Virus record (IMG/VR): IMGVR_UViG_3300042893_000514
Span: 1-20,125 of that record
Source of the DNA: a virus
Reading direction: 5' to 3' (one strand)
Length of the DNA: 20,125 bases
The notes under the pieces are model-generated. The model did no database searches, was not told where the DNA came from, and saw nothing but the letters and a program-made list of their open reading frames with translations. A program made the position numbers and the translations under genes. Numbering within the stretch: the stretch's first letter is position 1; every line of letters begins with the position of its first letter. Positions 1,757 through 7,118 of the stretch are shown in pieces.

Positions 1757-2653
1757 ATGACTCTATTACCAAAAGCGGCACCTCGTGTCAATTACCTAAA
1801 CAACCGTGATATTTTGAAAGAAATACACTTCAGCAAGAACACCTATTGCTGGTATCGAGATCCTGTACAGGACCACCAGTTTGATTTGATACTGCCCGGC
1901 CTGGACAAAATTAATCAACGCACTGTAGTTGAAGCAAGAAAAAATCGTGCTGACCGTATCAAACGCGAAACAGGCGAAGTGATTGATCAAAAGAAAATTC
2001 CCAACACTGACCTAGTGTTTAGGATCACCTGTTGGGATCACATTCCTAAAGCACCTAAAAAAATTACCAAGGCCGAAGCCAAACGCAAAAAACTAGAAGA
2101 CATTTTTGAACTGGATGATGTAGCAGAAGATCCACTAGCAGAAATATTGGATGTGCCTGTGTTGGATCTAAATCATGTGCGTGTGAACTTTCCTCCGTTT
2201 GAACAGTATAGACTGGACGAAGATAAAAAACCTTATATTGTGGGCCGTAGCCACTGGAAGGGCGATTTGACCACAGGAGAGTTTTCAAAAGATCACGGCA
2301 CAATGACCAAGAAGCTGGCGCTGATGTTTATGAAACTGTGCGAACGCTATGCCACTCGATCTAACTGGCGTGGCTACACCTACAACGAGGAAATGCGTGG
2401 ACAAGCTCTACTTCAACTTAGTCAAATTGGTCTTCAATTTGACGAATCAAAATCGCAAAATCCCTTTGCTTACTATACCGCTGCTATCACTAATAGCTTT
2501 ACACGGATTCTTAACATCGAAAAGAAAAATCAGAATATCAGAGATGACATCCTGGAGATGAACGGTTTGAATCCATCATGGACTAGGCAAAACTCTGGCA
2601 AAGCTGGTATGGCTGCCATGTCCGGACCGGTTGTATCTAGCTTGGATGAGTAG
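1757..2653 (+). CDS. 55: Late transcription sigma factor, gp55-like, with a large insertion
   Basis: The 298-residue product resembles T4 gp55, the sigma subunit that directs host RNA polymerase to TATAAATA late promoters. Residues 12-23 (NYLNNRDILKEI) match the gp55 N-terminus. The sigma-2-like core is at about 180-265: a helical LALMFMKL segment, GYTYNEEMRGQALLQL, then FDESKSQNPFAYYTAAITN, matching the T4 block GYTQSWKQEM...FDETKYKNPHAYITQ. About 130 residues with no counterpart in T4 gp55 (about 185 residues in all) lie between these parts, at about residues 35-170. They include Lys-rich and acidic stretches. The C-terminus ends SSLDE; the hydrophobic clamp-binding tail of T4 gp55 is not obvious. 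It is the first gene after a sigma70-type promoter. The family assignment rests on recalled T4 sequence, with good blockwise agreement. Confidence 0.85.
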   Translation: MTLLPKAAPRVNYLNNRDILKEIHFSKNTYCWYRDPVQDHQFDLILPGLDKINQRTVVEARKNRADRIKRETGEVIDQKKIPNTDLVFRITCWDHIPKAPKKITKAEAKRKKLEDIFELDDVAEDPLAEILDVPVLDLNHVRVNFPPFEQYRLDEDKKPYIVGRSHWKGDLTTGEFSKDHGTMTKKLALMFMKLCERYATRSNWRGYTYNEEMRGQALLQLSQIGLQFDESKSQNPFAYYTAAITNSFTRILNIEKKNQNIRDDILEMNGLNPSWTRQNSGKAGMAAMSGPVVSSLDE

Positions 2654-2665
2654 TATACTAGCAGG

Positions 2666-3640
2666 ATGAATTCATTAATTTTACACAACGGAAATCAACT
2701 GGTTAAGCCGTGGTTTAGTTCTAAATTAAAAAATTCAAAAATAATGCCATGCATTGCAGATTCGTGGACAGTTGACGGGTCTACACTGTGTGACTTTGAT
2801 TCAAGAATTCAGTATTCAAAATCTAAGACAAATGTCTGCACAGATCTTACATGTGCAGACAATATACCCACACTAATTCTTGCACAGCTCAAAGAGACCT
2901 TTACCTGTGTCAAGATTATATCTGATCACAATCTTGACATTGCTAATCTTGATCCAGCGTGGGAGTTGGATCAGTACAATCAAATGCAATGGTTAAAAGC
3001 GTCTTTGTACAGATTGTCAATGAGTGATGAACTAATTTTTTGGCACAAACCAAAATTATCTAGTGCGCAGACTACTCCTCCTATAATTTTTACCACCGGA
3101 AGGTCAGGAACTCATGTACTAAAGGAAGTGCTTGATACAAAACACTTTTGTCATCATGACAAAAACATTATTGCCGATTATAGATTCCGACGTTTGACTA
3201 CTGCCGAGTTCATTGGGGCTGTGGCCAGAAAAAGTTTTTTAAAATATTTGCTAAGTGTAGAAATTGCCAAGCAACGCCGTCTAATAATAACTACTGCTGA
3301 TTCTTTAAAAGAAATCCAACAAGAAGTGCAGATGTGGCAACCCATACACATTGACAAAGATGCTTGTGATCAAGCATTGGATAGTTTTGTAAATTATGTA
3401 GATCTATTGTTGGCATTATTTTATTTTTACAACAAATCTATAAATTTTAGTTTGCTTGAAGATTTGTCCGACCACTATGATTCAATTGCTGTTGTAAAAA
3501 ATCCCTATCATGCACCTGATTTATGTTCTAACTACGATTGGGTGGCAGAGTTGTGCGAGAAAACTTATCAACCAATTTACGAAAATATTTTGAAAAAACT
3601 GCAACTACTATTTGGTAACAATTGTTATAAACATGTCTAA
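2666..3640 (+). CDS. Sulfotransferase-like P-loop protein (accessory)
   Basis: A 324-residue protein starting 12 nt after the gp55 stop; the only upstream purine run, GCAGG, touches the ATG, so initiation may depend on coupling. At residues 143-152 it has TTGRSGTHVL, preceded by a beta-strand-like PPIIF. This is the form of the PAPS 5'-phosphosulfate-binding loop of sulfotransferases (xGRSGTxxL). The first 140 residues show no motif I recognise, and I do not see a convincing 3'-phosphate-binding motif further on. No signal peptide or membrane segment is evident. By eye it is more AT-rich than gp47 and gp46, as expected for a cargo gene. Its end overlaps the gp47 start by 8 nt. The substrate cannot be inferred; it may be a sulfotransferase, or a related P-loop protein without that activity. 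Confidence 0.5.
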   Translation: MNSLILHNGNQLVKPWFSSKLKNSKIMPCIADSWTVDGSTLCDFDSRIQYSKSKTNVCTDLTCADNIPTLILAQLKETFTCVKIISDHNLDIANLDPAWELDQYNQMQWLKASLYRLSMSDELIFWHKPKLSSAQTTPPIIFTTGRSGTHVLKEVLDTKHFCHHDKNIIADYRFRRLTTAEFIGAVARKSFLKYLLSVEIAKQRRLIITTADSLKEIQQEVQMWQPIHIDKDACDQALDSFVNYVDLLLALFYFYNKSINFSLLEDLSDHYDSIAVVKNPYHAPDLCSNYDWVAELCEKTYQPIYENILKKLQLLFGNNCYKHV

Positions 3641-4649
3641 TCTATTCCGTAAAGCCGCTATCTTCACTGACATACACTTTGGACTCAAATCCAATTCTAC
3701 CTTACACAATGAAGATTGTTTGGCTTTTGTAAAATGGGCCACTGCTAAAGCAAAAGAGGAAGGGTGTGAAACAGCCATGTTCCTAGGCGACTGGCACAAC
3801 AACCGTGCCAGCCTAAACATTGTCACACTCAACTACAGCCTTCGATCACTGGAGCACTTAAATGCAAATTTTGACCGCGTGTATTTTATTCCTGGTAACC
3901 ACGATTTATATTATCGCGATAAACGTGACATTCAAAGCGTGGAGTGGGCAAAGCACCTCCCTCGTGTTGAAATCTGCAATGATTGGTTTAGCAGTGGTGA
4001 TGTCGTTATTGCCCCTTGGCTATGTGGAGACGATCATAAGAGGATACCCAAGCTAACTGGCAAGTACATGTTCGGGCACTTTGAACTGCCCGGCTACTTG
4101 ATGAATGCCATGGTAGAAATGCCAGACCACGGAGAGGTGCGTAGAGAAGACTTTGAGAATTTTGAACATGTATTCACCGGACACTTCCACAAGCGACAGA
4201 CTAAGAAAAATATTACCTACATCGGCAATGCGTTTCCTCACAATTATGCAGATGCTGGTGACGACGAACGAGGCCTCACTATACTGGAGTGGGGAGGAAC
4301 GCCTGAGTTTCATGCTTGGCCTGCTCAACCAACCTATCGCGTCTACGGACTCGCCAACCTTATTGACAACGCTCCGACTCTTCTTAAACCCAAAATGCAT
4401 GTGCGTGTTGGACTAGACATTGAGATCTCATACGAAGAAGCCAACTTTATCAAAGAAACATTCATCCGCGACTATGACCTGCGTGAGATGAGTTTGATAC
4501 CAAACAAGAACTCAGATGTGGACACAGACATGGCGCCTGGCGAGATCAAGTTTGAAAGTGTGGATCAAATTGTAACAGACCAACTCACAAACATCGAGTC
4601 AGAATTCTACGACAACAAGCTACTGCTGAAGATTTATCAAAACTTATAA
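3633..4649 (+). CDS. 47: Recombination endonuclease subunit gp47 (SbcD/Mre11-like)
   Basis: A 338-residue calcineurin-like metallophosphoesterase that would pair with gp46 to process DNA ends in phage recombination and recombination-dependent replication. The metal-binding motifs appear in order: D-I-H at 13-15, GD ending at D53, GNHD with N89/H90, GHFE with H149 and GHFH with H184/H186. Length matches T4 gp47 (about 340). I chose the ATG at 3633, since the family begins within a few residues of the first beta strand; an upstream TTG at 3612 would add seven residues. The start lies inside the end of the preceding gene, with no clear Shine-Dalgarno, which suggests coupling. The partner gp46 is not adjacent: two metabolic genes lie between. 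Confidence 0.93.
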   Translation: MSNLFRKAAIFTDIHFGLKSNSTLHNEDCLAFVKWATAKAKEEGCETAMFLGDWHNNRASLNIVTLNYSLRSLEHLNANFDRVYFIPGNHDLYYRDKRDIQSVEWAKHLPRVEICNDWFSSGDVVIAPWLCGDDHKRIPKLTGKYMFGHFELPGYLMNAMVEMPDHGEVRREDFENFEHVFTGHFHKRQTKKNITYIGNAFPHNYADAGDDERGLTILEWGGTPEFHAWPAQPTYRVYGLANLIDNAPTLLKPKMHVRVGLDIEISYEEANFIKETFIRDYDLREMSLIPNKNSDVDTDMAPGEIKFESVDQIVTDQLTNIESEFYDNKLLLKIYQNL

Positions 4650-4658
4650 GGATTTTAC

Positions 4659-5606
4659 ATGAAAAAAATTATAGCAAGTTTGCTGGTAGCATTTGTATCT
4701 ATGAATACAATAGCACAAAATTTTCCAAGCAAACCAGTTAAAATTATTTTATCAATTGGGGTTGGTTCAGGTCCTGATGTTATGGCTAGAAAAATTTCTG
4801 AAGTACTAACCGAAAAATGGAAACAGCCAGTGTTAGTTGAAAACCGCCCGGGAGGTGCTGGCGTAATTGGGCTGAATGCCATCAACAGTGAGCCATCTGA
4901 TGGATACACTATAGGATTTTTAGATGGCGGTACTGTAGTTTCCTATCCAGTGCTTTATAAAAATCATGAACCAATTGGCCGTCTAGAGCCAATTGCACCA
5001 GTGTTAGATGCAAACATGGCATTGTTTGCATCTAGTCAAATACGCAATTACGATGATCTCAAGCAAGAGATATCCAAAAATCCAACATACAGTTCTTGGA
5101 ACATTGGTTCCATTGGACACTTGCTTGGCGCAGAGTTTGGTGCTAGTCTTGGAAATAAATCTATGACACACATACCTTACAAAGAGTTTGGCCAGTGGCA
5201 AGCTGATGTGTCAACCCGTCAAGTCCCATATGCGTTTGGCAGCACAGGAACTACAAAAAATATGGTGTTGGCCGGGAAAACAAAATTGATTGGCATTGCA
5301 ACTGCGCAAAGAGATTCACGATATCCCGAAGTTCCGACACTTAAAGAATTGACTGGTAAAAACATTACAACACTCATCTCTTGGTGCAGTTTTTATGTGT
5401 CTACTAACACTCCCACAGCAATCAAAATTCAATTAGAACGTGATCTCAAAGACGCTGTTGCTGATCCAAGAGTTCAAGAAACTATGGCAAAGTTTGATTA
5501 CATTCCTATTCACACAATGACGTTAACTGACTTCAAACGAAAAGTCAAGAACGAGCAAGACCAGTATCAAACCATTGTTAATAATTTTAACATTACACCA
5601 CAATGA
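4659..5606 (+). CDS. Bug/TctC-family periplasmic solute-binding protein
   Basis: A 315-residue product with a clear Sec signal peptide: MKK, a hydrophobic core, and a likely cut after NTIA before QNFPSKP. The mature part follows the Bug family (tripartite tricarboxylate transporter receptor) throughout: FPSKPVKIIL, GSGPDVMAR for the ligand-binding loop, VENRPGGAGVIG, PSDGYTIGFLDG, HIPYKEFGQ, YPEVPTLKEL, and a C-terminal TPTAIKIQLERDLKDAVADP. Length is typical (about 320). Bug proteins bind carboxylates or related small molecules in the periplasm and usually deliver them to TctAB permeases; no permease is visible here, so host TctAB would be needed. AAGGA at 4648-4652 overlaps the gp47 stop and is well spaced for the ATG. 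The stop overlaps the next start (ATGA). The gene appears intact. Ligand unknown. Confidence 0.93.
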   Translation: MKKIIASLLVAFVSMNTIAQNFPSKPVKIILSIGVGSGPDVMARKISEVLTEKWKQPVLVENRPGGAGVIGLNAINSEPSDGYTIGFLDGGTVVSYPVLYKNHEPIGRLEPIAPVLDANMALFASSQIRNYDDLKQEISKNPTYSSWNIGSIGHLLGAEFGASLGNKSMTHIPYKEFGQWQADVSTRQVPYAFGSTGTTKNMVLAGKTKLIGIATAQRDSRYPEVPTLKELTGKNITTLISWCSFYVSTNTPTAIKIQLERDLKDAVADPRVQETMAKFDYIPIHTMTLTDFKRKVKNEQDQYQTIVNNFNITPQ

Positions 5607-7081
5607 GTAACATCTTATCTCGCGACCTTATTTCGCCAGATTTTGTTCTCTATCAGGAGAACTTTCAATCTAACGAGGTAACAATTATTGATCGAACACA
5701 ATTTGTCAGCATGATTGATTATTGGAAAATGTTGCTGGTAGAAAAGTATCAGGCAAAGCCTGGCCAAACAGTGATGTTAGAGTTTAACTTGACCAATGCC
5801 TACTATTACAGCGCGGTGTTTGCGGTGTGGGAGTTGGGAATGATTATGATTGTTGATTGGCCGCATGCCTTCAGTTACGAAGATGCGACTAGTTATCGAA
5901 TGACCATGCATGGTAAGGTAGATTTTGCAATTGTGTACAGTCGGCAAACTGATCCTAACGATCAGGATTTTTATTCTTACTGGGATCACAAACGCAATCA
6001 ACTTAACTGCAATACCATACTAACTGAAAAAGAGTTTGACTCTTATCAAATTCAAGATCATACAAAATTTAAAAAAATCTCGCAAACAATTTTGGCGTCT
6101 GCTGACATTGATGCTGTTTGGACAGCATCAGGAGGAACAACTGGCAATCCCAAACAGATTAAGATTACTCACAAAGAAATTGCATTACAAGCAAGTCGGT
6201 TAACTAAACATCTAAATTTTAATTCTGGCGAACACGCATTGCACACTAACAATTTACATCACGGTGCTAGTATGTGCTACCACTTCTTGCCTAGTTTTAT
6301 GACTAGCAAGAATCACTACATCTACAACGGTGATCCGAGAGACAACAACTATTACAAAGTTTTATCTAAGTATATTGTTGACCGTAAAATCAACAAGATA
6401 CTGCTGTATAGTTCAGAAAAATTAATAAACTTTTTGTCCGAAACACCCAGACTCACTCACAATCTAGACATTGTTACATTGTTCTATGTTAACAATCGAT
6501 GCATTGATTTAATGCACGAAAAAAATGTTGGATCTATTAGGAACGTGTTTGGTGATACCACAATTGGTTACGGCTTTTTGGTCAAAGTAGTGGATAAAAA
6601 TACAGATTCGAGTACGTATGTAACCAGTAGAATTGGACCAAAACTTGATGACTTTTTTGATTTTAAAATTGAAGACGGGTATCTACATGTCAAGGTTGTG
6701 GGGTTGGGAGAAACTGAGTGGAAGACCAGTCAGGACAAATTTAATTTAATAAACAACGACTATCATTTCTACGGTCGAGGCACACAGTATCGTATCTGTG
6801 ATGAATGGATAAATCTTGGCGACATTGACAACAAAGTTGCAGAGTGTTTTCCAGAAGATGGTGCTACTGCTGTGATTGATAACGAGGAACAACAACTGTA
6901 CCTAAGTGTTTGGAAGTCTAATCCAGACGGAGAGCAAAAATTTTCCAACTATCTTAAAGACAATTACCAACATGTAACAGTTAACAAAATTGCCAGAGAG
7001 CTCAATGTTATAGAATACATTGTCAGTCGAAAAGTTGATAGACAAAAGCTCATGCAACATTTTAGAAAAATTAAAGAATAA
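5603..7081 (+). CDS. ANL-superfamily adenylate-forming enzyme (AMP-binding ligase)
   Basis: A 492-residue protein of typical ANL length, which would activate a carboxylate as acyl-AMP and possibly pass it to a thiol or amine. The P-loop-like A3 motif is TASGGTTGNPKQ at 174-185. The A5 motif is probably FGDTTIGYG (G317-T320). A7 is diverged but keeps a candidate ribose-binding Asp at D378 (TSQDKF), followed by YGRG at 390-393 and the A8-like hinge region RICDEWINLGDIDNKVAE. Near the C-terminus SRKVDRQKL (K477) corresponds to the A10 catalytic lysine region (GKxxR). No carrier-protein or condensation domain is attached. Its ATG overlaps the stop of the Bug gene (ATGA) and lacks a Shine-Dalgarno, so translation is probably coupled. 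The specificity pocket cannot be read by eye; it could be an acyl-CoA synthetase or another ligase. Confidence 0.85.
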   Translation: MSNILSRDLISPDFVLYQENFQSNEVTIIDRTQFVSMIDYWKMLLVEKYQAKPGQTVMLEFNLTNAYYYSAVFAVWELGMIMIVDWPHAFSYEDATSYRMTMHGKVDFAIVYSRQTDPNDQDFYSYWDHKRNQLNCNTILTEKEFDSYQIQDHTKFKKISQTILASADIDAVWTASGGTTGNPKQIKITHKEIALQASRLTKHLNFNSGEHALHTNNLHHGASMCYHFLPSFMTSKNHYIYNGDPRDNNYYKVLSKYIVDRKINKILLYSSEKLINFLSETPRLTHNLDIVTLFYVNNRCIDLMHEKNVGSIRNVFGDTTIGYGFLVKVVDKNTDSSTYVTSRIGPKLDDFFDFKIEDGYLHVKVVGLGETEWKTSQDKFNLINNDYHFYGRGTQYRICDEWINLGDIDNKVAECFPEDGATAVIDNEEQQLYLSVWKSNPDGEQKFSNYLKDNYQHVTVNKIARELNVIEYIVSRKVDRQKLMQHFRKIKE

Positions 7082-7109
7082 CAATCCAGTCGACCAATCA
7101 ATGGTATTG

Positions 7110-7118
7110 TGCTATAAT
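7110..7118 (+). promoter_or_regulatory. Extended -10 promoter element before gp46
   Basis: TGC-TATAAT (TG at 7110-7111, TATAAT at 7113-7118) is a perfect extended -10 box. It lies only 5 nt before the gp46 ATG, so a transcript starting 6-7 nt downstream would begin on or just inside the start codon. No good -35 is present, which extended -10 promoters tolerate. No Shine-Dalgarno is seen. A chance match in a 42-nt gap remains possible. Confidence 0.45.

Follow-up and report, generated by a model that had tools for sequence, protein, structure and literature searches.

A candidate phage cassette of a predicted carboxylate-binding protein and an ANL enzyme in the cargo slot between gp47 and gp46

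The window analyzed here, a 20,125-base virus record from IMG/VR, carries two overlapping genes between the recombination nuclease genes gp47 and gp46. The first encodes a Bug/TctC-type periplasmic solute-binding protein and the second an adenylating enzyme of the ANL superfamily. The pair recurs in related jumbo phages, and we assign a probability of about 0.5 to the reading that it belongs to a modular auxiliary metabolic cassette for the uptake of aromatic carboxylates via host TctAB and for their activation or hydroxylation.

The features of the window up to gp46 are all located on the plus strand. A gp55-like late sigma factor (1757..2653; phrog_12791, 3.1e-75), which is kept upstream in relatives, provides a phage marker. 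It is followed by orfA (2666..3640), a cargo reading frame from the ORF list which lies between gp55 and gp47 and overlaps the gp47 start (ATGTCTAA). Searches of orfA against Pfam and PHROG gave zero matches; relatives at 33-39% were detected in loci L025 and L058. The left border of the cargo slot is gp47, an SbcD-like recombination nuclease subunit (3633..4649; phrog_100, 1.1e-57), whose start is most likely the ATG at 3633, to judge from the MSNLF start in relatives. A Shine-Dalgarno-like AAGGA (4648..4652) is situated 6 nt before the ATG of the Bug gene (4659..5606, 315 aa), and the stop codon of Bug and the start codon of ANL (5603..7081, 492 aa) overlap in an ATGA at 5603..5606, which points to translational coupling of the two genes. 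The right border is formed by gp46, the SbcC-like subunit (7124..9205; phrog_77, 2.8e-106). A first-pass annotation had already proposed this arrangement: the overlap is present in the sequence, phrog_100 and phrog_77 bear out the location, and the identities of both cargo proteins were confirmed by PF03401 (2.8e-37, far above the cut-off), by PF00501 (3.8e-10, above the cut-off) and by AlphaFold/Foldseek. The portal protein of the window is nearest to those of the jumbo phages Atu_ph07, Phosso and PA5oct (48-55% identity), and the carriers of the cassette are Rak2/PA5oct/Atu_ph07-like jumbo phages of the T4 superfamily. Judging from their relatives, these phages probably infect Burkholderiales and probably live in freshwater.

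Directly 5' of gp46 we found a promoter-like TCGACC-17-TATAAT with extended -10 (7090..7118), which is a consensus match only. A perfect TATAAT not more than 30 nt upstream of gp46 is present in 9 of 43 filled slots versus 0 of 12 empty slots among those listed; a looser 5-of-6 match showed mild enrichment only (20 versus 14 in shuffles). Both gp46 and gp47 are early-middle genes in T4, and the cassette is therefore probably expressed during replication. Downstream of gp46 the window contains a gene for a SegE-like GIY-YIG protein (9221-9694; PF19835, 9.1e-33), which is found at this place in nearly all relatives; the PHROG label of this family, 'NAD synthetase', looks like a mislabel. The next reading frame, orfB (9705-10718), is SGNH-like by motif and AT-rich, as is orfA. 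The positions of orfA and orfB indicate that cargo enters also between gp55 and gp47 and after the segE-like gene.

Scanning of IMG/VR with gp46 yielded 80 syntenic loci and, after dereplication, 65 loci with both borders. The junction of gp47 and gp46 shows no gap in 22 of the 65 loci and contains one or more cargo genes in the other 43, so this junction is a cargo slot. The cargo includes radical-SAM/SPASM, SGNH-hydrolase-like, sulfotransferase-like and amidinotransferase-like proteins, ANL, Bug and unknowns, several of these labels being a reading of sequence motifs. The most frequent occupant (L057, L083, L014, L038, L050, L064, L073, L074 and others) combines SPASM and radical-SAM parts in about 500-526 aa, and in some slots SGNH-like genes come after it. 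Within the cargo of L073 (5820-6344) an apparent fusion of a gp46 N-terminus with a gp47 C-terminus is found, possibly a scar of slot recombination. Among the 65 loci ANL occurs in six and Bug in five, in each case together with ANL; the Fisher p value for this linkage is 7e-7 for all loci and 6e-6 within the 43 filled slots, both values being nominal because the loci are kin, though their gene orders differ. The search for further phage contigs which had been suggested for the pair was thus positive: adjacent Bug and ANL genes recur in the same slot of many distinct contigs, which is more than chance would give.

The gene order varies considerably. Bug precedes ANL in the window, L005 and L065/L087, the order ANL-Bug is found in L046, L116 and L117, and an SGNH gene is added in front of ANL-Bug in L026/L093, L091 and L095. 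Locus L070 has the order ANL-Bug-ANL, whereas L006 and L088 contain ANL-Bug followed by RHDa and RHDb, the two subunit genes of an oxygenase, and L111 and L113 contain Bug-RHDa-RHDb without ANL. A Bug fragment next to ANL lies at the contig end of L079. Outside the slot, ANL-Bug is present in L090 and in L112, there adjoining genes for an RNR small-subunit-like and a glutaredoxin-like protein, and ANL without Bug occurs in L021, L101, L097, L099/L100 and L089. These many architectures argue for a combinatorial module.

To judge the selection on the module we compared close pairs. Within the window clade Bug gave a dN/dS of 0.075-0.092 and ANL one of 0.090; the L026 clade gave 0.035-0.12, and for the RHD genes of L111/L113 values of 0.02-0.12 were obtained. 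The phage Bugs are under strong purifying selection. In a phylogenetic tree 16 module Bugs formed one clade (100/100), which was grouped (100/99) with five Bugs from Burkholderiales plasmids, and seven other phage Bugs were placed elsewhere in the Bug tree. The comparison with Burkholderiales paralogues proposed in the first-pass annotation therefore resolves into one phage clade with plasmid-borne sisters, and in this tree the module Bugs appear as an old phage lineage with no recent capture from the sampled cells, the cellular sample consisting of plasmid Bugs only. A variable and often empty slot is also what neutral hitchhiking cargo from host operons, functionless in the phage, would produce. 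This explanation, which we regard as extremely improbable, was rejected on the dN/dS of 0.035-0.12; the old phage-specific Bug clade speaks against it as well, as do reading frames and motifs that are intact in contig after contig.

The Bug protein has the features of an exported binding protein. Its N-terminus, about residues 1-20, is signal-peptide-like (MKKIIASLLVAFVSMNTIAQ), and MKK plus a hydrophobic stretch, a predicted export signal, can be recognized by eye in most slot Bugs. Profile matches to the PDB are Bug27, BugD and terephthalate-binding proteins. The AlphaFold (AF2) model shows the type II two-domain fold of binding proteins with a mean pLDDT of 88.6, and Foldseek retrieved BugD, the terephthalate binders TphC and TBP, and Bug27 with TM 0.77-0.82, followed by a sharp drop to other binding proteins. 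In solved Bugs two pincer loops provide the contacts to the ligand carboxylate (PMC8556258, PMC5812351). In the alignment the first of these loops corresponds to residues 30-44 (ILSIGVGSGPDVMAR; 4746..4790), with GSGPD in place of the common GGxxD, and the second to residues 170-184 (THIPYKEFGQWQADV; 5166..5210), with YK[ED] in place of the common YKG. Of the beta1-alpha1 signature P-F-x-A-G-G-x-x-D the Gly and Asp are kept and PF and the second Gly are altered (SxxGSGPD); this variant is common to the cellular Bugs L130, L134 and L138. Inspection of the pocket by predicted structure and alignment, proposed earlier as a check, gave coherent and conserved residues, though unusual motifs; the protein is classed as a canonical solute-binding protein of the TTT family with a predicted export signal. 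Bug reached at most 25% among INPHARED phages, the match being in a faecal scaffold that carries no annotation.

The search of 20 phage records, largely fragments, found no TctA; host TctAB would therefore be required. The same result fits a Bug that acts alone in the periplasm as a decoy or receptor-like protein, by sensor interference or superinfection exclusion and with no transport. We consider this very unlikely, since Bugs orphaned from nearby TctAB are the rule in betaproteobacteria (PMC5812351) and a decoy leaves the linkage to cytoplasmic enzymes unexplained.

Evidence for the ligand class comes from the oxygenase genes of related phages and from cellular Bug neighborhoods. An IMG/VR scan with the oxygenase detected four contigs (L006, L088, L111 and L113), and in all four the slot Bug is located directly upstream. 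The alpha and beta genes encode the domains PF00848, PF00355 and PF00866, and the Rieske CxH..CxxH and mononuclear-iron DxxHx4H motifs are intact. The alpha subunit RHDa is 58-60% identical to plasmid homologues, among them an annotated salicylate 5-hydroxylase NagG (58.8%). The AndAc equivalog model scores 358 bits, below its cut-off of 750, which places the phage enzyme, by its sequence, in the same subfamily below equivalog level. A search of the phage records, largely fragments, revealed no separate Rieske ferredoxin, so that ferredoxin and reductase would be those of the host.

On the cellular side four of the five sister Burkholderiales Bugs adjoin aromatic-ring genes, in a set of plasmid contexts only, which is enriched in catabolic operons. 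These neighbors are an FAD monooxygenase with fumarylacetoacetate hydrolase (FAH), LigK with protocatechuate (PCA) 4,5-dioxygenase, gallate dioxygenase, and an AMP-binding enzyme with thioesterase and FAD monooxygenase. Bugs outside the sister group have mixed neighbors (TctAB, LLM oxidoreductase, D-serine ammonia-lyase, indolepyruvate oxidoreductase, SDR-MaoC-AMP-binding and one chlorocatechol-type operon), and some of them also belong to catabolic operons. The Acidovorax plasmid locus L138 was chosen by the likeness of its oxygenase to the phage one (57.6%), independent of Bug similarity. Its operon has the order RHDa-RHDb-ferredoxin-reductase-FAH-cupin-Bug. GSGPD, GSWGIGS and YKD are present both in the L138 Bug and in phage Bugs; the typical Bugs of the comparison carry GGxxD and YKG/YRG instead. 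With 35% to a phage Bug, the L138 Bug also shows the top identity among the cellular Bugs compared. In four phages Bug is paired with a Rieske oxygenase of the NagGH type, and the nearest cellular Bugs lie mostly in aromatic-acid operons of hydroxybenzoate type; both observations point to an aromatic carboxylate as Bug ligand; the sister-group contexts, the L138 locus and the shared pocket motifs favor the same class.

A different reading is a Bug that serves as a general nutrient scavenger in the manner of PstS, for an aliphatic di- or tricarboxylate, an amino acid or a pyridine carboxylate, with ANL acting in an unrelated process, e.g. surface or peptide modification. The ligands of known Bugs include aspartate, glutamate, citrate, adipate, nicotinate and quinolinate (PMC5812351, PMC11452294), many other enzymes occupy the slot, Bug-less ANL homologues sit amid radical-SAM, glycosyltransferase-like and oxygenase-like cargo, and further Bug and DctP-type binding proteins are encoded elsewhere in the L006 genome. 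The strong Bug-ANL linkage, the linkage of Bug to NagGH and the pocket motifs common to Bugs of aromatic operons argue against scavenging, which we regard as possible and rather unlikely.

The L006 record (337 kb) encodes five TctC/Bug proteins, the slot copy and those at L125:6291-7265, L125:11321-12211, L126:5123-6094 and L127:4690-5607, besides the DctP-type protein (L125:7420-8367). It also contains two nitronate-monooxygenase-like genes and a gene (L126:7988-9283) for a member of the isocitrate lyase family (PF00463, 5.7e-106), which could belong to a glyoxylate shunt. A second, shorter ANL-like protein of 363 aa (L127:3540-4631, minus strand; PF00501, 2.1e-26) is encoded divergently from a Bug gene and adjoins a nitronate-monooxygenase-like gene. 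With five TctC proteins, the DctP-type protein and the isocitrate lyase family protein, acquisition and use of organic acids seem to be a wider theme in this phage.

The ANL enzyme of the window keeps the A3 P-loop, A7 Asp378, A8 Arg392 and A10 Lys477. These positions are kept in nearly all ANL relatives, the A10 Lys being lost in L089. Motif A5 (YGxTE) reads FGDTT in the window, an exchange of Glu for Thr, and all 14 members of the main Bug-linked clade, the Bug-less L089 among them, have Thr, Ser or His in this place. The Glu is retained in the Bug-less ANL clade and in L046 and L116 (L021, L046, L097, L099, L101, L116). By its sequence the main Bug-linked clade would either use another metal ligand or have changed chemistry. 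Motif A4 is an almost invariant HHG (HHP in L116), with His where amino-acid A domains carry Asp in the HMM alignment, which argues against alpha-amino acids as substrate. An NRPS amino-acid A domain was rejected as identity because of the missing A4 Asp; no PP-binding domain, the possible carrier partner, was detected in 20 phage records, most of them fragments. The AlphaFold (AF2) model (mean pLDDT 88.6) has a large N-terminal and a small C-terminal domain. Foldseek retrieved McyG-A, EntE, MenE, PchD, AuaEII and acyl-CoA synthetases with TM 0.55-0.69 and 10-15% identity, and its structural neighbors include anthranilate-CoA and salicyl-AMP ligases. ANL is very divergent and has zero matches among INPHARED phages. 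Contig scans revealed no cellular relatives of ANL or the phage Bug, the short phage-specific peptide patterns used in the scan missing relatives that lack them.

The neighborhood of anthranilate-CoA and salicyl-AMP ligases, together with an oxygenase of the anthranilate/salicylate-processing type, is also consistent with a module that removes or rewires an aromatic signal or defense compound of the salicylate or anthranilate type, inactivated by ANL and oxygenase, with no feeding. For signals inside the cell a binding protein that imports would be of little use, and zero signaling genes are linked to the module; we consider this reading unlikely.

Returning to uptake and activation, Bug would be exported to the host periplasm, bind a carboxylate, most likely an aromatic one (hydroxybenzoate- or salicylate-like), and pass the acid to the host TctAB permease. 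In the cytoplasm ANL would activate the acid to the acyl-AMP and then probably to the CoA ester, so that it would adenylate the ligand of Bug. In related phages the NagGH-type oxygenase would hydroxylate the acid with host electron-transfer proteins, and host pathways would burn it during infection. We infer the ligand class, the use of TctAB, the shared substrate, the host and the benefit to the phage. A two-step pathway of capture and activation had been suggested from the window and is supported in part. The recurrent pair and the exported-type Bug agree with the pathway, as do the phage records without TctA insofar as it relies on host TctAB. Against it count the replaced A5 Glu and the strong divergence of ANL, the occurrence of each gene without the other (Bug alone in L111 and L113), and the lack of TctA, of an acyl-carrier domain and of a separate Rieske ferredoxin in the phage records searched. 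The catalytic role of ANL is the weakest link of the two-step model, because the A5 Glu is lost in the main Bug-linked clade and ANL is found without Bug.

A more specific form of this reading is plausible and remains tentative: jumbo phages would carry a kit of Bug, ANL and NagGH-type oxygenase that channels aromatic acids of plant or humus origin into the metabolism of the infected host, and the Bug-linked ANL would be a clade specific to phages whose A5 chemistry has changed. Genes for photosynthesis, nucleotide metabolism and phosphate uptake are among those known to be supplied by phages. If the reading is true, a recurrent module for high-affinity uptake and activation of organic acids extends viral control to the heterotrophic use of dissolved organic carbon and would offer orphan Bug proteins, for which functional leads are few, one more such lead. 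It also makes the carbon source required by a jumbo phage open to a concrete test.

Among known systems, BugD, Bug27, TphC and TBP share with the phage Bug the fold (TM about 0.8), the Pfam family, the signal peptide, the two pincer loops and the orphan status with respect to TctAB; the phage protein differs by 20-27% identity, GSGPD, YK[ED] and the coupling to ANL. Burkholderiales aromatic-acid operons, such as the RHD-gentisate-type operon of Acidovorax sp. DW039 (L138) and the AMP-binding/FAD-monooxygenase/Bug operon of Variovorax (L134), also have a Bug with the same pocket type, next to an oxygenase of the NagG type or an AMP-binding enzyme. However, the cells encode the whole pathway with electron-transfer proteins and the phages two to four genes, and the phage ANL differs from the cellular AMP ligase. 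With the ANL superfamily (aryl-acid adenylating enzymes, MenE, NRPS A domains) the phage enzyme has in common the predicted two-domain fold, the P-loop, A7 Asp, A8 Arg and A10 Lys; it deviates by 10-15% identity, the A5 Glu replacement in the main Bug-linked clade and HHG in A4. The oxygenase of L006, L088, L111 and L113 resembles NagGH/AndAcAd in alpha identity (58-60% to NagG-type homologues), Rieske and iron motifs and alpha-beta order, but it is phage-encoded and lacks adjoining ferredoxin or reductase genes.

In SUP05 viral contigs a tctA domain match has been described as a viral auxiliary gene and TTT family component (PMC4164917); this is a membrane subunit in one domain match, without Bug, ANL or oxygenase. 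The first-pass annotation knew of no described phage cassette of this type, and in the open literature, subscription papers being outside the scope, we likewise found no earlier phage Bug, Bug-ANL or Bug-Rieske cassette; searches on ring-hydroxylating dioxygenase and AMP-binding genes of phages also turned up none. As in other auxiliary metabolic genes, metabolic genes with T4-like flanks and purifying selection (dN/dS 0.035-0.12) were observed. The cassette is a variant of known phage auxiliary metabolic genes, and its combination of Bug with ANL or a Rieske oxygenase is apparently undescribed. The precedent is the cyanophage PstS (PMC2984593), with which a T4-like phage likewise provides a transporter of its host with a periplasmic binding protein, but the phage Bug belongs to another ligand class and transporter family and is linked to activating or oxidizing enzymes.
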